NCBI GenBank assembly: GCA_013140575.1
Contig: JABFSN010000108.1
Coordinates: 1 to 40,455, forward strand
DNA from: Phycisphaerales bacterium
GTDB lineage: Bacteria; Planctomycetota; Phycisphaerae; UBA1845
Direction of reading: 5' to 3'
DNA length: 40,455 nucleotides
Under the pieces are notes generated by a model. It did not search any database, was not told the origin of the DNA, and saw only the letters and a list, made by a program, of their open reading frames with translations. The translations under genes were made by a program, and so were the position numbers. Shown here in pieces: positions 31,286-40,455 of this stretch. The stretch's first letter is position 1; each line of letters opens with the position of its first letter.

Positions 31286-32008
31286 ATGAATACCGTCATC
31301 GTCGGCGCCGGTGGTCACGGACGGGTCGTGCTCGACATCCTTCTCGCCGCCGGCGAACACCACGTTGTCGGATTCATCGACTCCAGCGCCGCGCTGCGCG
31401 GCCGCCGCATCGACGGTCGTCCCGTCCTCGGCGACATGGATCAACTGCACGACATCATCGCCGATCATCGACTCGACGGCGCCGTGGTGGCCATCGGCGA
31501 CAACGGCGTCCGCCGCCAGTTCGCCGACCGTTGCGAATCCGCCGACCTGCAACTTCTCAACGCCATCCATCCGTCCGCGAACATCGCCCACAACGCATCC
31601 ATCGGCCGAAACGTCGTCGTCGCCGCCGGTGCCCTGGTGTGCGCCCACTGTCAAATCGGCGACTCCGTTATCCTAAACACCGGCTGCATTGTCGATCACG
31701 AATCCATGATTGGAACCGCCACGCACGTCTGCCCCGGTGCGCGCCTGGCCGGCCGCGTCACCGTCGAGGCTGGTGCGTTCATCGGCATCGGCTCTACCGT
31801 TATTCAAAACCTCCGCGTCGGATACGAGGCCGTGATCGGCGCCGGCGCCGTGGTGACCCAGAACGTTAAACCGCTGTCCACCGTCGTCGGCGTCCCGGCG
31901 CGCGAGATCAATTCCATCGATGCCGAGGACACTCCGTGGATCGCCGATCAATACCTCGTCCCCGTCGGCGCCGATGGCTCGGGAGCGTTTCCCAGCCTCA
32001 ACCTTTAG
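31286..32008 (+). CDS. NeuD/PglD-like sugar O- or N-acyltransferase
   Basis: A 240-residue protein with the NeuD/PglD plan. A Rossmann-like N-terminal domain starts MNTVIVGAGGHGRVVLDIL (about 1-90), then a left-handed beta-helix of hexapeptide repeats (IAHNASIGRNVVVAAGALV, IGDSVILNTGCIVDHESMIG). His138 and Glu139 in VDHES match the catalytic pair of PglD, and THVCPGARLAG matches the acetyl-CoA-binding turn. Such enzymes acetylate nucleotide-activated amino-sugars for glycans. I chose the ATG at 31286 because it begins the Gly-rich dinucleotide motif, with AGGAA upstream. The stop codon overlaps that of the convergent STT3-like gene by 3 bases. A glycan-related neighbourhood fits. Confidence 0.93.
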   Translation: MNTVIVGAGGHGRVVLDILLAAGEHHVVGFIDSSAALRGRRIDGRPVLGDMDQLHDIIADHRLDGAVVAIGDNGVRRQFADRCESADLQLLNAIHPSANIAHNASIGRNVVVAAGALVCAHCQIGDSVILNTGCIVDHESMIGTATHVCPGARLAGRVTVEAGAFIGIGSTVIQNLRVGYEAVIGAGAVVTQNVKPLSTVVGVPAREINSIDAEDTPWIADQYLVPVGADGSGAFPSLNL

Positions 32009-34275
32009 CCGCCGCCGTCCCCCACCGGCTCGGCGCCGGTCGCCGGTTGCGATGGCCTCCCGGCGCCGCTCGATTCCGGCAATATCCGGAACAACTGATA
32101 CGCTGGCCGATCATCGCCGCTTGCCGACGCCGGATACAAGCGCGTCGCGAACGCAGGCATCTCCAGCAGTTTCTTCGCCAATGCCAGATGGTCCCGATCC
32201 ACAATCACGTACTTCGCATGAAAATGGTCGCGGATGTCGGCCAGCCGGACGTGAATCCGCTTCACCATCGGCTTGCCGTCTTCCATTACCGTCACACTTC
32301 TTGTGACGGGTGTCTCTCCCCGCGAAATCCGAACATAGCGTTCCCACAATACCGGGTCTTTCTGATGCGAAAACTTCGGATCCAATCCTACGATATAGTG
32401 GCTGCGGTGATTCAGATAGAAATAGACCGGGAAGATGTCCCAGTCATCGGTAAACACGACGTCTCCCGGTTCTGAATCCGCCTCCAGAACCGCCATGACC
32501 GTTCGAATGGCCGGCAAATCATACTGACACCTGCTCTCGCTCTGCATGTGACCCAATAACGCTCCCGCCGGGACCGCGGTCACGCCGATCAACAACACGG
32601 TGCATGCCACCGTCATGGCCCAACGCCGCAAAACGAATAGCTTGTCGTGCGAAACACCACTGCCACTCACGGTTATTCCACCCGCGACTCGAAATGATGC
32701 CAAAACTCCCGCCGAAATAACGAACGCCCACCACGGTACCGTCAACTCGGCCGCCTCAATAGTCCGAGGGCCCGCCAATTGTCTGATGATAATCGCCGTC
32801 GCACCGCAAACGCCGGCCCACGCAGCCACGGTCCGTATAACCGACGCGATGCCTCTTGAATCGGATCCCGCCCGCGCCATCGGAATAATCGCCGCAACAC
32901 CGACAAGCATCGTCCACCATCGCCACTCGCGCACGAATTCCATCGGAATATGAACTGCCATGCGCCGGCCAAGAAGAACACAGCCGGTCACGCCCCATGC
33001 ACACAACAGGCCGACAACGGCGTGTCGCCGAATCGTCCGCGATTCAACGATCATGGCCCCAATCCGGTCTACCAGCGGACCCGCCAGGTACGCCGAACTC
33101 AACGTCGCAAATAGCGGCCAGTATTCAATGAATCGCCTCGCCTTCATCGTCAGTATCAGGAAAACTAATTGCATCAATACCGTTGCAACCTCTCCAACTC
33201 CCGCGCGCCGCCCTGCGCACAGCCGCAGCAGAATCGCGCTGGCCGCCACCGTCAGCGTGATGCCCGACATTTCCACGAAAAACCACGCCGGCGAATAACT
33301 CTCCCACTCCTGCCCCACCTCAATGTCCGGTGACAGGCCGGATCCAAATACCTGCAAATTCAGAAACTCGATCGCCGCCGTCCCGCCATACGGGTGCGTC
33401 CACAAACCGACGACCCATCCCGCAAACGTGGCGGCCGCTATTCGACACAGATCGGAACGAATCTCCCGCAGCCGCCCGTCCTGCCACGTCGCGTGCGTCG
33501 TCCATAACTCACTGCACGTGACCAGCGCGCCTGCCACGACGACGCAGATCACCAGCAGTGGCGCATAAATCACCGCACCCAGATAGACATGAATGGACAA
33601 ACAAACGACGATTCCGCCCGCCAGCCATCGACGCGTGAACATGCACCAGCACAACAACAACATGCAGACCAGCGACGGGTCGATCGCCCGAACGAATAGA
33701 TGGCGACCGTAGAACTGCGACGGCAACAGCAGACACAATGCCATCCACAACCAGCGTCGCTGTATTCCACGTACCATCAGCAGCAGATGAAACAACGCCA
33801 TGGACAGACCGAATGACACCGTCGTGAACCATCTCCCGCCGGCCGCATAGTCGCCCGTCCATCGGTGCGACAGCCGCACGGCGAACGACATCAGCCATTG
33901 AAAACCGTAATGGTGGTTGACGAACGTCTCGTTGAATACCGTCGTCCGCAGCCACGGAAACGTGTCCGGCAGTCCGATGTCCGGCATCAATGCCGCCATC
34001 TTGATGTGATAGAACGAATCGTGTCCCGGCGCCCCCCGGTCCTCGAATGGGATGTTTGCCTTTCCCGCATACAGGAAATGCATCACGCCGGCGAACACCA
34101 GAAACGTCGCGGCCAGTTCAGCGACTCGAAACCAACCGCGCCCTGTCGCCAGTTCCCGGACGTCGCCATTCCAGTCGCGACCTGCGTCCAGCCCGCAGCC
34201 ATCCAGCGCCGACCGCGGCCCGGCCCCCAGCCGGTCTTCCATCGTCCGCTCGGACCTCGCCGCCGACCGTATCAT
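32005..34275 (-). CDS. STT3-like GT-C multi-pass membrane protein
   Basis: A 756-residue protein with about a dozen hydrophobic segments from residue 54 to 580 and a soluble C-terminal domain. After the first segment comes GHDSFYHIKMAALM (84-97), resembling the D-x-x-YH first-loop motif of oligosaccharyltransferase STT3/PglB and other GT-C enzymes, then FNETFVNHHYGFQW. The C-terminal domain has VVFTDDWDIFPVYFYL where STT3 proteins carry WWDYG, so oligosaccharyltransferase activity is not certain. The ATG at 34275 overlaps the stop of the SPFH/propeller gene as ATGA, so translation is coupled. A later in-frame ATG exists at 34242. A glycan-transfer role is inferred. Confidence 0.82.
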   Translation of the reverse strand: MIRSAARSERTMEDRLGAGPRSALDGCGLDAGRDWNGDVRELATGRGWFRVAELAATFLVFAGVMHFLYAGKANIPFEDRGAPGHDSFYHIKMAALMPDIGLPDTFPWLRTTVFNETFVNHHYGFQWLMSFAVRLSHRWTGDYAAGGRWFTTVSFGLSMALFHLLLMVRGIQRRWLWMALCLLLPSQFYGRHLFVRAIDPSLVCMLLLCWCMFTRRWLAGGIVVCLSIHVYLGAVIYAPLLVICVVVAGALVTCSELWTTHATWQDGRLREIRSDLCRIAAATFAGWVVGLWTHPYGGTAAIEFLNLQVFGSGLSPDIEVGQEWESYSPAWFFVEMSGITLTVAASAILLRLCAGRRAGVGEVATVLMQLVFLILTMKARRFIEYWPLFATLSSAYLAGPLVDRIGAMIVESRTIRRHAVVGLLCAWGVTGCVLLGRRMAVHIPMEFVREWRWWTMLVGVAAIIPMARAGSDSRGIASVIRTVAAWAGVCGATAIIIRQLAGPRTIEAAELTVPWWAFVISAGVLASFRVAGGITVSGSGVSHDKLFVLRRWAMTVACTVLLIGVTAVPAGALLGHMQSESRCQYDLPAIRTVMAVLEADSEPGDVVFTDDWDIFPVYFYLNHRSHYIVGLDPKFSHQKDPVLWERYVRISRGETPVTRSVTVMEDGKPMVKRIHVRLADIRDHFHAKYVIVDRDHLALAKKLLEMPAFATRLYPASASGDDRPAYQLFRILPESSGAGRPSQPATGAEPVGDGGG

Positions 34276-36035
34276 ACGCCCGGAATCAGACAAACGTCTT
34301 GAATGGAGTGATGCGTCACGCGGCCGACGGCGGCCACGGAATGCGGCTTGCCCGGCTCGCCGGGCAGCCAACAGATTAAACGATCGCGCATCTCGGTTGT
34401 TCCGGCGATCAGGTCGTACGCAACCTCGACCCGCAGCACGGTCTGCCCCCCGGCCTCGTAGCGGCACGTCAACCTGTCATCCAAAACCTTCGCCGAAACG
34501 CCGGCCGATGCGTCCGTATACAATAACCGCCGCAAACCCGGGAATTCCTGAAACACGATGGACTCGATCGCACGCCGACAACTCTGCACAATCAACGACG
34601 GTCGATCCGGCGTTCCCACCGGCCAATGCAGCACCTCGCCGTTCGCGTTGCCCGCGTAAACGCCATCCTCCACTGCCGTGAACGACGTGATGGGTGCTCC
34701 ACTCCCGGTATATCGCGTCGACTCACCCTCCAAATCGTCGGCGCGGATGCGGCGAACTTCCTCGTCAACCGCGTAAAACACGTCCCCGTGTCGCACCTGA
34801 ACGCCGCGCACCGTCGCCACTCCGCGTGCCTCCTCCGGCCGAGTCTCCGCGCCCCTCGCGTCCGAATCGCGGCGCCACCGCATCAGACCTAACTCGGAAT
34901 GCGTCGCCAGAATCACGTCGCCGACCAGCGCGACCGCGTTGAACCCACCCCGAACGGAACCGCACACCGCCGCGCGATAGGTCCGGACGTCGCCGTCGCC
35001 TTCACTGCCCAACTCATGAACGCCCGTCGCCGCTCCCACGAACAACCGTCGGAAACCGGCCGCATCGACCTGCGACTGCACCGATCGAATTGGACCGATC
35101 CCCGCGCCGATGGTCCGCCGCTTCGCCGCCTCGCCCATCGACCGCGGATCAAAATGCAGAATCTCGTCGCCCGAACCGACCACCACCCACTTCGTCTGCG
35201 ACCGCCCATGGCACGTGCCCAGCACCGCCCCGTACAATTCCGCCCGATCCGTGTCCGCGAACGACCGCAGCAACTCGGACAACTCCAACCCCGGCGACCG
35301 CTCCGTCTCATTCCGCAGCCGATCCAACAAGCCCGTCAGGTGCTCCGCGCGACGTCGTTGCGCCGATTCCCTGGCCTCGGCCAGCCTTTCGCGTGTCACG
35401 AATTCGTCGCGCAGGCGCTTCGATTCCGCCCGCGCCCGCACCGACTGCCGATACAGCGGCGAATCGATCCGCACCTCAATCGATCCCTCGATTCGCACCC
35501 CCGCTGCAAACGCCGCCGCGCGCAACGGCCCTGCGACGTCGGCAATCACCTCATCACGCCGCCGCGGCTCAATCAACGCCTCGACGCCGCGCCCCTCCGC
35601 CGCCGCCGCCAGGCCCGCACGTACTGCGTCCTCGAATCGTTCGCTAACACCCGCGACGTCCACGCCGGTTTGACGACCCATGATCCGTTGCTCGAACGAC
35701 GACAACTCGCCCGTCTCGCCCACCGGCACCACCCGAAATCCCACGCTCGCCTCGCACGGAAAATGATCCGCCGACGAAACCGTCACCTCGTCCAATCGTA
35801 CATCAACCGGCTTGATCCGAACCAACAGCAGCCCGCTCACGTCGTCCGCGCTCACCGTTCCGCCCGGCAAACACACCCGCCGGTCACCCAGCTCACCCCG
35901 AATCAATGCGACCTGATCACCCGGCAGACGTAGCGACCGATTCAGAAGCCCGAACACGGCCGCCGGATCAACCACCAATGCGACCGCCTCCGGCCTCTCA
36001 AAAAACTGTTTCGGATCTCGCTCCACCGTCTTCAT
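34272..36035 (-). CDS. SPFH/band-7-like domain fused to a beta-propeller
   Basis: A 587-residue soluble protein. Residues 30-195 resemble a band-7/SPFH domain: LLLVRIKPVDVRLDEVTVSSADHFPCEASVGFRV, a helix SERFEDAVRAGLAAA, and the closing strand GVRIEGSIEVRI followed by a helical arm. Residues 196-260 are an Arg/Glu-rich coiled coil. From about 280 to 560 there are at least five repeated four-strand units (WVVVGSGDEILHFD, RRLFVGAATGVHELG, GDVILATHSELGLMRW, GDVFYAVDEEVRRI, DGVYAGNANGEVLHW), the pattern of a beta-propeller. SPFH proteins assemble rings on membranes. No membrane segment is visible. It lies about 90 bp downstream of the MIT-AAA gene and is coupled to the STT3-like gene, so it may be the membrane adaptor of the system. 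Confidence 0.85.
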   Translation of the reverse strand: MKTVERDPKQFFERPEAVALVVDPAAVFGLLNRSLRLPGDQVALIRGELGDRRVCLPGGTVSADDVSGLLLVRIKPVDVRLDEVTVSSADHFPCEASVGFRVVPVGETGELSSFEQRIMGRQTGVDVAGVSERFEDAVRAGLAAAAEGRGVEALIEPRRRDEVIADVAGPLRAAAFAAGVRIEGSIEVRIDSPLYRQSVRARAESKRLRDEFVTRERLAEARESAQRRRAEHLTGLLDRLRNETERSPGLELSELLRSFADTDRAELYGAVLGTCHGRSQTKWVVVGSGDEILHFDPRSMGEAAKRRTIGAGIGPIRSVQSQVDAAGFRRLFVGAATGVHELGSEGDGDVRTYRAAVCGSVRGGFNAVALVGDVILATHSELGLMRWRRDSDARGAETRPEEARGVATVRGVQVRHGDVFYAVDEEVRRIRADDLEGESTRYTGSGAPITSFTAVEDGVYAGNANGEVLHWPVGTPDRPSLIVQSCRRAIESIVFQEFPGLRRLLYTDASAGVSAKVLDDRLTCRYEAGGQTVLRVEVAYDLIAGTTEMRDRLICWLPGEPGKPHSVAAVGRVTHHSIQDVCLIPGV

Positions 36036-36121: not shown

Positions 36122-37243
36122 TCATCCCCCCGTCCGCGCAAACGAGTCGTATCGCCCCAGCGATTCCTTGTTCACCGACGGCGGCGTACTCTCCAGCACG
36201 CTCAAAATATCCTGCATGTTGATCGGCCGCGCCTCACGACCCCCGATGGCATCCGTAAACGGAATCGCCGCCGCACGATGCGCAATCTGCTTGATGTCCG
36301 CACCCGAATACCCCTCCAGCATGTCACACAATTCGCCCAGATCGACGTCTTCATCCAGCGGCCTGTCCCCCAGGTGGATCTCCAGCAACTTGTATCGCGC
36401 CGGCGCGTCCGGCAATCCAATGTACACCTTCGTGTCCAGCCGCCCCGGCCGCAAAAACGCGTCATCCAGCATCCACGGCTTGTTCGTCGCCCCCATGAAC
36501 AACAACGCCCGGTCCCCCGTGCGATCAAACCCCTCCATTTCCTGCAGAATCTGCGGCACGACCCGCTGCATCACCGACGAACTGTCGCCGCCCCGCTTCG
36601 GAACCATCGCCTCCACCTCGTCCATGAACACCACCGACGGCGTGCGCTCCTTGGCCGCATCGAACAACTTCCGCACGTTTTGCTCCGCCTCTCCCACCCA
36701 CTTGCTCAAGATCTGCGCCGCGCTGATCAGGAAAAACGTCGCGTCTAGTTCCTTCGCCACCGCCTTGGCAATCATCGTCTTGCCCGTCCCCGGCGGCCCG
36801 TACAACAGAACCCCTCCGCCCACCGCGATCCCGTAGCGCTTCGCCAGCTCCGGATGCGCCTGCGGATAAATCATCTTCAGCCGAATCTCCTGTTTGACGT
36901 CCTCCAGTCCCGCAATGTCGTCAAACCCGATATCCGGCTTCTCCGTAACGATCCAGTCCGACGCATCGCGCGTCTCCTCCCCGCTCTCCCTCTCCCGCGC
37001 TCCCGCCCGCGGCCCGCCCGGTTGCCCACGCGACCCCTCGCATTCCTTCGCCAGATCTATCAACCCGGCCGCCAGTTCCTCCCGCTGCCGCGCCGCCTCC
37101 GGCGACTCGGCCGACTGTGCCAACTCCAACATGCACTCGGCCGCCTCGATCAGATAACTCTTCGCGGCCGCGTATTCCCCGCGCGTGTACGCGCTGACGC
37201 CCTTGTCCTTCAGCCGCTCAAACGTCGCGTACGATACCGCCAT
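36122..37243 (-). CDS. Vps4-like AAA ATPase with N-terminal MIT-like domain
   Basis: A 373-residue protein. Residues 5-70 are a three-helix bundle with the pattern of MIT domains (YATFERLKDKGVSAYTRGEY, AAKSYLIEAAECMLELAQ, REELAAGLIDLAKECE). A 30-residue linker leads to a meiotic-clade AAA domain: GFDDIAGLEDVK (107-118), Walker A GPPGTGKT (149-156, Lys155), pore loop KWVGE (181-185), Walker B VVFMDE (204-209), sensor-1 ATNKPWMLD (252-260) and arginine fingers near LRPGRLD. ATNxPW and the KW pore loop are shared with Vps4, katanin and spastin. The C-terminus PSVNKESLGRYDSF is also Vps4/Cdc48-like. The beta-domain insertion of Vps4 appears absent. I took the ATG at 37243, just ahead of the first helix; the frame is open to 37330. 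Confidence 0.93.
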   Translation of the reverse strand: MAVSYATFERLKDKGVSAYTRGEYAAAKSYLIEAAECMLELAQSAESPEAARQREELAAGLIDLAKECEGSRGQPGGPRAGARERESGEETRDASDWIVTEKPDIGFDDIAGLEDVKQEIRLKMIYPQAHPELAKRYGIAVGGGVLLYGPPGTGKTMIAKAVAKELDATFFLISAAQILSKWVGEAEQNVRKLFDAAKERTPSVVFMDEVEAMVPKRGGDSSSVMQRVVPQILQEMEGFDRTGDRALLFMGATNKPWMLDDAFLRPGRLDTKVYIGLPDAPARYKLLEIHLGDRPLDEDVDLGELCDMLEGYSGADIKQIAHRAAAIPFTDAIGGREARPINMQDILSVLESTPPSVNKESLGRYDSFARTGG

Positions 37244-37358: not shown

Positions 37359-37931
37359 TTACCGCGGAGCGTCGTGTATCTCCGGATTATATCGATCTTC
37401 CTCTATCATCTCGTCGTAACATTCCAGATACGCCATGCGAACCAGCGGGTTCAACTGTTCGGCGAATTCCTCATCCAGCTCATTCTCGCGAATCAACGCT
37501 ATGACGTCCGCCCAGTCCCTCATCCGCCACGTCACCAGCTTCAGCTCCACGAGACGCGCCAGCGAAACCGTGGGAATACCGCCAATCTCCATGGCTTCCG
37601 CCGGCGATGGAAACCGTATTTCCTTATTCCGGCTGGTTCGCCCGGCCAAATCGCCGGCATTCAGTACGTAGATCGTCACGCGTGTTTCAGAATCCCGGAA
37701 CCGCCGCGATCGACCCTCCACCCGCTCGTATGATGCCCCCACCAGTTCGCGCTTGAATTTTTCGAATCCCTCCGCCGGCAGACAAACGTCCACATCCTCC
37801 GTCGCCCGCCGATACTTGTGTGCGCCCAGCGCAAATGCGCCAATAACGACAAACTCAATACCCGCCGCGTCCAGTAGTCGTCGCAGCCGGGCAAACGTCT
37901 CTGGCACCGGACCCCGATCCTGAAAAAACAT
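37359..37931 (-). CDS. Nucleotidyltransferase of the AbiEii/MNT type
   Basis: A 190-residue protein. FVVIGAFALGAHKYRRATEDVDVCLP carries the minimal nucleotidyltransferase signature, G-A/G-x-A-L followed by the TxDxD metal pair. The helical C-terminal part (LARLVELKLVTWRMRDWADV) matches AbiEii-like and DUF6036 proteins, which often transfer nucleotides to RNA or protein partners. I chose the ATG at 37931 because GGAG lies 6 bases upstream. A longer reading starts with GTG at 38072, overlapping the previous stop as GTGA, but its first 25 residues come from a simple DNA repeat. It sits between the ESCRT-III-like gene and the ATPase gene; whether it belongs to the system is unclear. Confidence 0.85.
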   Translation of the reverse strand: MFFQDRGPVPETFARLRRLLDAAGIEFVVIGAFALGAHKYRRATEDVDVCLPAEGFEKFKRELVGASYERVEGRSRRFRDSETRVTIYVLNAGDLAGRTSRNKEIRFPSPAEAMEIGGIPTVSLARLVELKLVTWRMRDWADVIALIRENELDEEFAEQLNPLVRMAYLECYDEMIEEDRYNPEIHDAPR

Positions 37932-38026
37932 CTCGATCTCCGCGAACGGATCCAGCGCCCGCCCCCGCCACACTCTCCATCCCTCGTCTGCTCCAACCTT
38001 CGTCGGCAGGGCTCCGAGCGGCCCCC

Positions 38027-38066
38027 CCTTCGTCCCTCCGTCCCTTCGTCCTTTCGTCCCTTCCCC
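38027..38066 (-). repeat. Short tandem repeat of an 8-base unit
   Basis: On the plus strand four near-identical units related to CTTCGTCC run back to back. On the minus strand they read GGACGAAG, GGACGGAG and similar. The tract is purine-only on one strand except at the C positions. It lies between the ESCRT-III-like and nucleotidyltransferase genes and is of the intergenic mini-repeat type. Confidence 0.7.
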
Positions 38067-38068
38067 AA

Positions 38069-38677
38069 TCACTTCTGCTTCTCCCCCTGCCTCTTCAATG
38101 CATCCAATTCCGCCCGTAGTCCCGACAGCTTGTCCAGTTCCCGGCGATGCTCCGCTTCCGCCTCCGCGTCGATCATCCGGTCAATCTCTTCATCGCTGAC
38201 CGCCTCGCCGTCCGTCTTCATCGACGCGCCCTGCGCCGCCATGTCCTCCACCGAATCCAAAAACATCCCCATCCGCTCTTCCATCGTCTCGGCCTGCAGC
38301 ATCGCCCTTTCCCATTCCCCCTGCGTCTTAACCAGGTCGGTCTCGCCGAACAGCCGCCCGATCTCCGCGGCCATCAACCCCATCCCCTGGGCGAAATCCG
38401 CCGACGCCTCGGCCTGCCGCTTGATCAGCAATGCGTTCTTCACCGTCAACAACTGTCGTTCCAGCAGTTTACGTATGGCCGCGGTCTTCTTCAGCGAATT
38501 GCGGATGAACTTATACTGTTGGGTATCACCGATCTTCTTCGCCTCTTGCGCATGACGCACGAAATCATCGGCAAACCTCCCCTGCTCGCGGATCGCCTTC
38601 TCGATCCGCCGAATCCCCTGACGGATCTTGATGTCCCGTTCAATCCGCCGCTCTTCCGATGACTTGAATAATCCCAT
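38069..38677 (-). CDS. ESCRT-III (Snf7/Vps2)-like helical protein
   Basis: A 202-residue, almost wholly helical protein. It opens MGLFKSSEERRIERDIKIRQ, a short amphipathic start then a strongly basic helix. A long helical hairpin follows (RIEKAIREQGRFADDFVRHAQEAKKIGD, then QQYKFIRNSLKKTAAIRKLL and on to about residue 110). The second half is acidic (GEAVSDEEIDRMIDAEAEAE). A basic core, an acidic C-terminal half and a final helix LSGLRAELDALKR at 184-196 that resembles a MIM1 motif match ESCRT-III/CHMP proteins. PspA/Vipp1-like or unrelated coiled-coil origin remains possible. I prefer the ATG at 38677, which gives the MGLF start; an ATG at 38686 adds three residues. Confidence 0.85.
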   Translation of the reverse strand: MGLFKSSEERRIERDIKIRQGIRRIEKAIREQGRFADDFVRHAQEAKKIGDTQQYKFIRNSLKKTAAIRKLLERQLLTVKNALLIKRQAEASADFAQGMGLMAAEIGRLFGETDLVKTQGEWERAMLQAETMEERMGMFLDSVEDMAAQGASMKTDGEAVSDEEIDRMIDAEAEAEHRRELDKLSGLRAELDALKRQGEKQK

Positions 38678-38874: not shown

Positions 38875-39486
38875 TCACCCCTCCGCCGGCGCCTGCCGCT
38901 CCCGAACCCGCCGGTCCGCCTCGTCAAACGCCTCGGCCCCATCCCGAATCACCCCCGTGTCCATTCGCTCCCAGATGTTAATCACCGCCTGACCCGCGTC
39001 CGACAACCCCGTCGCCCCCTGATCGACCTCGGCTCCAACCCCCAGCATCTCGTCCAGCCGCTCCTGGTACGCCTCCGTCTTGATTGCATCGCTCTCGATC
39101 AGTCGGCCGATTCGCAGAATGTCACCTTCCGACACCATCCCCAGCGTGCCGCCCGTCTGACGTGCCCGGTCCGCGTTCTCCCGCAACATCCGCAACCGCG
39201 AGACCGTCAATAATTCCTTGCTGCGGATATTCAACTGCCGCGACACCATCAATTGCTCGGTCGTCTTCAGTTCAAACTCTTGTGCCAGCGCCCGCCGCAC
39301 CTCCGGCGTTTTCTCCCCCGCACCCTTCTCAAAAACACTCTGCTTGTCCGCGGCCAGCTTCTTAATTCGATTCAACAGCTGCGACCGGTCCTTCTCCAGC
39401 AGTAGCTCCTTCCGGCGCAATTCCGACCGCGTCAACTGGGACAGCGGCCTCTTCCGATTGGTCAACCATTCAATCAACTGCATCAT
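38875..39486 (-). CDS. Second helical ESCRT-III-like protein
   Basis: A 203-residue helical protein. It begins with an amphipathic stretch MMQLIEWLTNRKRP. A hairpin of two long helices follows: SELRRKELLLEKDRSQLLNRIKKLAADK, then EVRRALAQEFELKTTEQLMVSRQ and IRSKELLTVSRLRMLREN. The second half is shorter and more acidic (EGDILRIGRLIESDAIKT, YQERLDEMLGVGAEVDQG). The hairpin with a Lys/Gly turn and the SKxLxxxS segment parallels the winged-helix protein encoded just upstream (SKQVDIIST), so the two look like paralogues. No enzymatic motif or clear MIM motif is visible. It starts 13 bases after the upstream stop. The ESCRT-III link is by architecture only. Confidence 0.82.
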   Translation of the reverse strand: MMQLIEWLTNRKRPLSQLTRSELRRKELLLEKDRSQLLNRIKKLAADKQSVFEKGAGEKTPEVRRALAQEFELKTTEQLMVSRQLNIRSKELLTVSRLRMLRENADRARQTGGTLGMVSEGDILRIGRLIESDAIKTEAYQERLDEMLGVGAEVDQGATGLSDAGQAVINIWERMDTGVIRDGAEAFDEADRRVRERQAPAEG

Positions 39487-39498
39487 GGTCAGCCGCGT

Positions 39499-40455
39499 CT
39501 AATTCGCCTCGCGCTCAGCCTCACGGCTCCGCGCCGCCGCATCGGACTTCGGCGGTTCATCGACGCCCGCGACCGCACGGCGCGAATCCGTCGCCCGCGC
39601 CGTCGGTGTCTTCGACGGCGCCGCCGGCGCGGCCGATGGCGGCGCCACTTGCGGCGCGTCAAATTCTTTCAGAATCGCCAGTTCATCGTCGCTCATCGAA
39701 ACCCCGGCGATCCCCGTCTCCAGCGAACTCACCAGGTCCGCGTCCGACTGCAACGCCTCCAGAATCTCCTCCGCCTGCACCGCGTTCTCGGTCAACTCTT
39801 CCGTCGTCGGCAGCTTGGCCGCGTTCCCCTGTTGAATGAGCGTCAGGTTATGGATATCCGTGCTGATAATATCCACCTGCTTGCTCAGCATGTTCGCCGT
39901 CGTGTTCTGCCGGACGATGTCCTTCCGCAATTGATGCATCTGCGCCGCCAGCCGCCGCTTCACCACCTGCGACGTCGCCGTTCGTCCCTGCTCCAGCAGT
40001 TGCGCCTCCTTGGTCTCCAATTGCCCGATGTCCTCGTACAGCCGGTCCCGCCGTTCGGCCAGCTTCGCACGCCGCTCCGCCAGCTCGTTGATCTTCTCCG
40101 CCTCATGCCCCTCGCGCGAGAACAACTGCCGTATGCGGTCCACCACGTTCATCGATGACTTCTCCGCCCGCGGACCGGCCGCCCCGCGATAGATCAAGAA
40201 CCCGTCCGACTGCCGCGACACGCGCAGCTCCGGATCTTCCCGCGCCACGGACTCCATCGCCTGCCGCACCAGCGGCTCCGGCACCGACAATCGTCCCGCG
40301 ATTGACGACGCCGACATTCCTCCGGTCAACAGGTCTGCGCTCCGGTGCCGCAGTTCCTCCCGGACCCGGTCAATCTTGTCCGCCTCCACCTCCGGGTCGA
40401 ACAGCGCCAATACCGCCGCCGGCAACTCCGCCCCCGCCCCGGCCACCTTCCAACC
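39499..40455 (-). CDS. Winged-helix protein with Snf7-like helical core, 5' end at window edge
   Basis: The frame is open to the window edge. A GTG at 40446 gives 315 residues and could be the start, but more may lie outside. Residues about 15-90 form a winged helix (MSASSIAGRLSVPEPLVRQAMESVA, then the wing ELRVSRQSDGFLIYRG). From about 97 a helical core follows (SSMNVVDRIRQLFSREG, INELAERRAKLAERRDRLYEDI, KRRLAAQMHQLRKDIVRQ, SKQVDIISTDIHNLTLIQ), then an acidic helix (TENAVQAEEILEAL) and a Pro/Ala-rich disordered tail. Winged helices occur in ESCRT-II and in some archaeal CdvB proteins. An N-terminal winged helix on a Snf7-like core is unusual. It heads the visible operon. Confidence 0.83.
   Translation of the reverse strand, partial: GWKVAGAGAELPAAVLALFDPEVEADKIDRVREELRHRSADLLTGGMSASSIAGRLSVPEPLVRQAMESVAREDPELRVSRQSDGFLIYRGAAGPRAEKSSMNVVDRIRQLFSREGHEAEKINELAERRAKLAERRDRLYEDIGQLETKEAQLLEQGRTATSQVVKRRLAAQMHQLRKDIVRQNTTANMLSKQVDIISTDIHNLTLIQQGNAAKLPTTEELTENAVQAEEILEALQSDADLVSSLETGIAGVSMSDDELAILKEFDAPQVAPPSAAPAAPSKTPTARATDSRRAVAGVDEPPKSDAAARSREAEREAN

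Follow-up and report, generated by a model that had tools for sequence, protein, structure and literature searches.

Two reviews have left little room for ESCRT machines in bacteria, one describing a single PspA-type ESCRT-III protein without a clear Vps4 (PMC7615534), the other stating that ESCRT homologs are not identifiable there (PMC10936438). In archaeal loci, a winged-helix (wH) protein is often encoded upstream of ESCRT-III, and SPFH proteins are found in some of them (PMC10936438). According to a survey of PSP systems, bacteria do encode Vps4-like ATPases, and some operons contain Snf7 homologs with a transmembrane (TM) segment beside an AAA+ ATPase (PMC11237479). In humans, CHMP7 acts as a membrane adaptor that recruits ESCRT-III to the membrane (PMC5069351).

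Here, we describe a small operon of a Phycisphaerales bacterium that resembles the ESCRT-III/Vps4 machinery with which archaea and eukaryotes cut membranes. We consider it likely that its gene A encodes a fused adaptor-filament subunit of a bacterial ESCRT-III/Vps4 machine, in which the old start of the filament subunit was kept and from which two products are probably made.

Gene A and its winged helix

The window, by which we mean the whole 40,455-nt stretch that was analysed, is the complete contig C179 of a genome of 5.05 Mb that is 96% complete. Gene A was found at its edge on the minus strand (39502..40455), where an open frame of 318 codons, the 3' two thirds of the gene, is truncated by the contig end, with no stop to the frame at that edge. 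The missing 5' third (~165 N-terminal residues) was located by using as query the N-terminal portion of L022, a full-length relative that is 60% identical to gene A and whose residue 166 corresponds to residue 1 in the window. The matching stretch is terminal on C132, another contig of this genome, and is 58% identical to L022 residues 2-164. Gene A is most likely intact in the genome and split by the assembly; the whole protein measures about 480 aa, and its orthologs in relatives about 470-510 aa at full length. Within the family and order, 33 of 40 genomes have an ortholog, so the architecture is more than chance. Contamination was ruled out as the source of the locus, which occurs in the high-completeness single-contig genomes G030, G034, and G462 as well as in MAGs labelled Phycisphaerae.

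AlphaFold2 was run on full-length L022 with four relatives, and gave a model of modest confidence (mean pLDDT 56), in which the winged helix (L022 residues 187-258) and the helical core (269-417) were the better-modelled parts (about 60-83). The modelled order is an alpha/beta region, a winged helix, an ESCRT-III-like hairpin, and a disordered tail. The Pro/Ala-rich tail of A (39502..39660, minus strand) was delimited by low pLDDT and by alignment, and ends in REAEREAN; PEA-like residues are common at this end in relatives. The original prediction, made without a stated strand, had a winged helix at the N-terminus ahead of a hairpin core, and looked to another contig for the rest of the gene. 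Its frame is correct and runs on the minus strand, the remainder was indeed recovered from C132, and a single frame holds the winged helix (window residues ~22-93), the core (about 102-265), and then the tail. The winged helix is central rather than N-terminal, however, as ~165 further residues precede the window.

The winged-helix domain (40177..40392, minus strand) was assigned from the L022 model and VIA-align 2 comparisons. L022 residues 187-258, most of which have a pLDDT of about 76-83, adopt the alpha-beta-alpha-alpha-beta-beta fold in the model and match winged helices with Z-scores up to 9.6 (1sfu, rmsd 2.8 A over 69 residues), followed by 3f21 (Z 9.4, 2.1 A over 64 residues). A winged-helix fold of the first domain, as originally expected, is thus borne out in the model. 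The original prediction envisaged the nucleator part as ESCRT-II-like. One winged helix was recognised in A, against the tandem winged helices of EAP30/Vps25 type in ESCRT-II (Vps22/25/36), and the VIA list contained no ESCRT-II chain, an absence that leaves kinship with ESCRT-II no more than possible. The TSG101 stalk, returned at E 0.41 by the adaptor profile search, was judged a chance match. In loci L096, L098, L099, L112, L113, and L117, the winged-helix module is C-terminal in a longer frame (343-924 aa) with a different N-terminal partner domain.

The ESCRT-III-like subunits, the ATPase, and their neighbours

On the minus strand, the operon reads A, B, C, a nucleotidyltransferase, V, and S. 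The A-B-C-V-S order recurs across genomes of the order, and in other classes of the phylum it is accompanied by a second ATPase.

By its sequence, gene C (38069..38677, minus strand; 202 aa) belongs to the Snf7 family of ESCRT-III subunits, as seen with a deep profile, Pfam, and Foldseek. The phylum-wide C profile found five matches in the PDB at E <=10, all of them ESCRT-III (SNF7 at 0.0039, 0.004, and 0.018, CHMP3 at 0.071, and CHMP2A at 0.83). Pfam Snf7 (PF03357) is matched by 27 of 42 C members, with a best E of 2.7e-6, and ranks 1-6 of a Foldseek search of the C model against the PDB were all CdvB/CdvB2 (E 0.03-0.12). BAR domains, which top the VIA list (Z about 10), were rejected as the identity of C, as they share the helical arrangement without sequence support. 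C was found in 56 of 392 genomes of the phylum and in 40 of 150 genomes of the class, and no relative was found on viral contigs.

Gene B (38875..39486, minus strand; 203 aa) is a second ESCRT-III-like subunit, judged by its position beside A and its profile homology to the A core. Across the order, it is the neighbour of A at almost every locus; it has a basic part followed by an acidic one, and matches C between deep profiles at E 5.5e-5 over 56 columns (reversed control 0.21). In some classes (L085, L087, L090, and L092), two copies of B lie next to each other, which brings the ESCRT-III-like paralogs of the operon to four.

The core of A (39661..40152, minus strand) was delineated from model helices, structural matches, and profile homology to B. 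It opens with an amphipathic stretch, MNVVDRIRQLF, followed by a helical hairpin and further helices; the hydrophobic moment of its N-terminus is strong, at the 92nd percentile. In the L022 model, at modest confidence, helices at 269-320, 324-373, 383-417, and 421-430 form a long alpha1-alpha2 hairpin and further helices. Residues 265-375 match CHMP1B (6tz9; Z 8.0, 1.5 A over 92 residues; VIA-align 2), Vipp1 (7o3x, Z 7.8), CHMP2A (7zcg, Z 7.6), and PspA (7abk, Z 7.4), although hairpin Z-scores below 13 may reflect a common helical arrangement and values of 7-8 are by themselves no proof. Through these model matches, the hairpin originally called Snf7-like does appear ESCRT-III-like. Across 47 members, the mean charge is +2.5 in the core and -14.9 in the tail, a basic part followed by an acidic one.

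Profile comparisons link the A core to B (hhalign E 2.8e-5; with deep profiles E 5.9e-6 over 159 columns, reversed control 0.034). A direct profile comparison of the A core with C gave no signal, and the identity of the core is therefore argued from the chain A-B-C together with structure, charge, and context. Among 47 members, 2 match Pfam Snf7 (best 0.19), and single-sequence searches with A and B against Pfam and NCBIfam gave nothing above cut-off. A profile search of the PDB with the A core placed CHMP2A (E 1.5) and CdvB (E 2.0) amid coiled coils; for scale, human CHMP4B reaches CHMP2A at 0.54 in the same database. Profiles from narrow family alignments found no ESCRT-III match in the PDB, where the phylum-wide C profile alone gave one, and the stand-alone core profile (A9) returned only unrelated coiled coils. 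No A-core member contains a strict MIM1 motif; other MIM types exist. As no single sequence test places it in Snf7, we refer to the A core as ESCRT-III-like.

Gene V (36122..37243, minus strand; 373 aa) encodes a CdvC/Vps4-like AAA ATPase with MIT-like N-terminal helices and a Vps4_C end, as assigned with NCBIfam and Pfam. An AAA domain, the Vps4_C end (Pfam E 4.4e-5; 23.8 bits, above the cut-off of 21.3), and a CdvC-like length are all present. Among NCBIfam models CdvC is best (E 6e-72), nearly tied with CDC48 (9.5e-72), and the score for the CdvC model is far below its equivalog cut-off. MIT is weakly matched at the N-terminus of 2 of 21 members (best 0.012), and in other classes the alignment to the CdvC model starts at residue 12. 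V contains the Vps4-like GATNKPW followed by RPGRLD, and the corresponding family stretch, RPGR(L/F)D, is Cdc48-like. The second ATPase of other classes carries the Vps4-like stretch NRPWDLDPAVLSRFEKKILIPLPD, the form seen in eukaryotic Vps4. This second, Vps4-type ATPase (loci L085, L087, L088, L090, L092, L096-L101, L103, L104, L107, L108, L111-L114, and L117) adjoins C and is marked by the motif NRPW...RF(E/D)K, with an MIT-like N-terminus in the complete copies; it is missing from this locus in the window's order.

Gene S (34272..36035, minus strand) was recognised as a conserved partner from its presence in the locus across classes and from a weak SPFH/Band 7 likeness of its N-terminal half, with Band_7 E-values of 0.012 here and 4e-4 in L104, neither of which passes the cut-off. 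Between C and V lies an AbiEii-like nucleotidyltransferase gene (37359-38072; Pfam E 6.9e-5, above cut-off), also seen in L021, L024, L029, L032, and L054, while other relatives are without it. Beyond S, a large membrane protein is encoded (32005-34467), and L022 has a homolog at the corresponding position. A CdvA gene was not recognised at the locus. PspA/IM30 (PF04012) had no match anywhere in the genome, the locus included, and is present in 4 of 30 relatives; loss of PspA where the locus is present is a possible pattern.

A gene fusion with a conserved, predicted internal start

In other planctomycete classes, the equivalent of L022 residues 1-256 is an ORF of its own that stops shortly past the winged helix, and it is followed by a gene for a core-like protein that starts M-x-L-L-x-R-I-K-x-L-F. 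Such separate ORFs were found in about 22 loci, with gaps of -4 to 137 nt between them; many overlap or lie close together, and 16 of 22 gaps are below 20 nt. In the window's class, other orders included, adaptor and core form one frame, and the two are also fused, at a different junction, in L105 from another class. Since the two parts are separate and adjacent elsewhere, gene A is a fusion of neighbouring adaptor-winged-helix and core genes. The merger of a nucleator with a filament subunit envisaged in the original prediction therefore holds at the level of genes, while the nucleating role is one that we infer.

At the fusion point lies an in-frame ATG (40150..40152, minus strand; residue 102), identified by junction alignment as the predicted start of a free core of 217 aa. 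It is preceded by a Shine-Dalgarno-like GGAG (40162..40165, minus strand) in the context GCGGAGAAGTCATCGATG, and its position is that at which the stand-alone core gene starts in other classes. The junction ATG is found in 31 of 33 distinct fused orthologs (L045 has AAG, and L042 was unmatched), and 28 of these 31 carry GGAG 6-16 nt upstream. When synonymous codons were resampled by each gene's own usage, GGAG was expected in 12.1 +/- 2.5 genes, with a maximum of 21 in 2000 resamplings. The codon before is G-ending in 27 of 31 cases (17.7 expected), and GGAG precedes only 5% of other in-frame ATGs and 0-18% of the real operon starts, less often than the internal site.

As the orthologs are related, 28 of 31 does not count independent events, and the better argument is that three junction contexts agree. 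Fused genes of other orders keep GGAG(G) and ATG in 7 of 7 cases with a differing peptide, for example TGGSDMPFLERI against AEKSSMNVVDRI, and the fused gene of L105 has AGGAGGA ahead of its ATG. These data point to nucleotide-level selection for initiation on the internal Shine-Dalgarno motif and ATG. Given their conservation at the junction, the one gene probably yields both an adaptor-filament hybrid and a free filament subunit.

Alternative readings, the proposed machine, and its relatives

Only the long protein would be made if the internal GGAG-ATG were a relic of the fusion or served to slow ribosomes at the domain boundary, and the motif does lie exactly between two domains, where pausing could help folding. 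We consider this improbable. The orthologs retain the ATG, after which comes an amphipathic start like that of the stand-alone gene, and the same kind of motif is found in three junction contexts. With orthologs that are 26-66% identical, a relic under no selection would be expected to have eroded at its synonymous sites. Internal Shine-Dalgarno motifs are also reported to be depleted in bacterial coding regions (PMC5100845).

The identity of either half of the long protein could likewise be read differently. The A core might be an unrelated coiled-coil scaffold within an ESCRT-III/Vps4 operon, with C and perhaps B as the only ESCRT-III subunits, as neither Snf7 nor any PDB entry is significantly matched by the core itself and hairpin matches with Z-scores of 7-8 are frequent for helical models. 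The profile match between the A core and B, which spans 159 columns and has clean reversed controls, the homology of B to C, the amphipathic start, charge split, and gene length that the cores have in common, and the recurrence of Vipp1, PspA, and CHMP chains in the list of structural matches all make this unlikely. Similarly, the winged helix is structurally closest to Z-alpha and to the DNA-binding domains of ArsR/GntR-type bacterial regulators, and could make A a DNA-binding regulator or a membrane-DNA tether instead of a membrane adaptor. We give this little credence, as ESCRT systems commonly use winged helices as modules, placed at the C-terminus both of the archaeal arCOG09748 adaptors and of CdvB (PMC10936438), and as both the gene order and the fusion to an ESCRT-III core favour a role in the machine.

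For the fused adaptor-filament subunit that we favour, the ancestral step would be the joining of neighbouring operon genes, one for an adaptor made of the alpha/beta region and the winged helix, the other for a filament subunit of ESCRT-III-like type. The fused mRNA would then yield the long adaptor-winged-helix-ESCRT-III hybrid and the free 217-aa core. The adaptor half may dock at a site on the membrane, possibly together with the SPFH-like S, for which the weak Band_7 evidence suggests a possible role as membrane platform. Since CHMP7 is a winged-helix-ESCRT-III hybrid that recruits ESCRT-III, a hybrid of this kind can bring ESCRT-III to a membrane (PMC5069351). The attached core of the long form would seed a filament that is extended with free core, B, and C, and that the Vps4-like ATPase V would remodel or dismantle, bending or cutting the membrane. 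In the cell, this could serve division, vesicles, or repair.

If bacteria have a conserved operon that combines several ESCRT-III paralogs with a Vps4-like ATPase, this would alter the picture drawn in the reviews and bear on the origin of ESCRT. Phycisphaerae show binary-fission-like division without FtsZ, and the protein driving it is an open question (PMC6952346). Absence of FtsZ was rejected as a special mark of the genomes that carry the locus, as 0 of 392 genomes of the phylum scored above the FtsZ cut-off. The operon is a testable candidate for division in those Phycisphaerae lineages that carry it. We see roughly even chances for the broader reading, in which Planctomycetes possess a full archaeal-type multi-subunit ESCRT-III/Vps4 machine, one class makes a nucleating adaptor and a filament subunit at a set ratio from one gene with two starts, and the machine possibly has a role in division in these FtsZ-less bacteria. 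The split and fused forms offer natural experiments on the seeding of a filament by its adaptor.

Among known systems, CHMP7/Chm7 resembles A in that a single protein combines an ESCRT-III core with a winged-helix region ahead of it. The order, which the original prediction set apart from those of CdvB and ESCRT-II, is not unprecedented, as human CHMP7 has tandem winged helices ahead of its ESCRT-III core (PMC5069351). Those of CHMP7 are VPS25-like, whereas A is bacterial, has one winged helix after an alpha/beta region, and has a predicted internal start. As in the archaeal CdvB/CdvC system, ESCRT-III paralogs are encoded beside an AAA-Vps4_C ATPase, here with a weakly MIT-like N-terminus, and the NCBIfam model that fits V best is CdvC; the winged helix of CdvB is C-terminal, however (PMC10936438), and the locus described here is bacterial and has no recognised CdvA. 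The unfused planctomycete loci resemble those of arCOG09748 and arCOG11741, in which a globular region with a C-terminal wH, or a wH protein, is encoded in or upstream of an ESCRT-III/Vps4 locus (PMC10936438); these are separate archaeal genes, and the likeness to the planctomycete loci is one of layout.

PspA and Vipp1 share the ESCRT-III hairpin and match the A core structurally, but usually occur as a single copy without a clear Vps4 (PMC7615534), whereas three paralogs and a Vps4-like ATPase are found here. The operons of the PSP survey have a bacterial Vps4-like ATPase in common with this one, and differ in that snf7 is reported to be displaced by a TPR/6TM gene or has a TM segment; the excerpted text of that survey describes neither a winged-helix fusion nor a dual start (PMC11237479), in a literature limited to open-licence articles without bioRxiv, so that a description elsewhere is possible. 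Lastly, SctQ-type genes are also reported to give two in-frame products from one gene, the short one being the C-terminal part (PMC4295842, PMC8553256). The proteins are unrelated; here, an adaptor hybrid and a filament subunit are the predicted products, and the fused and the split state both occur in nature.
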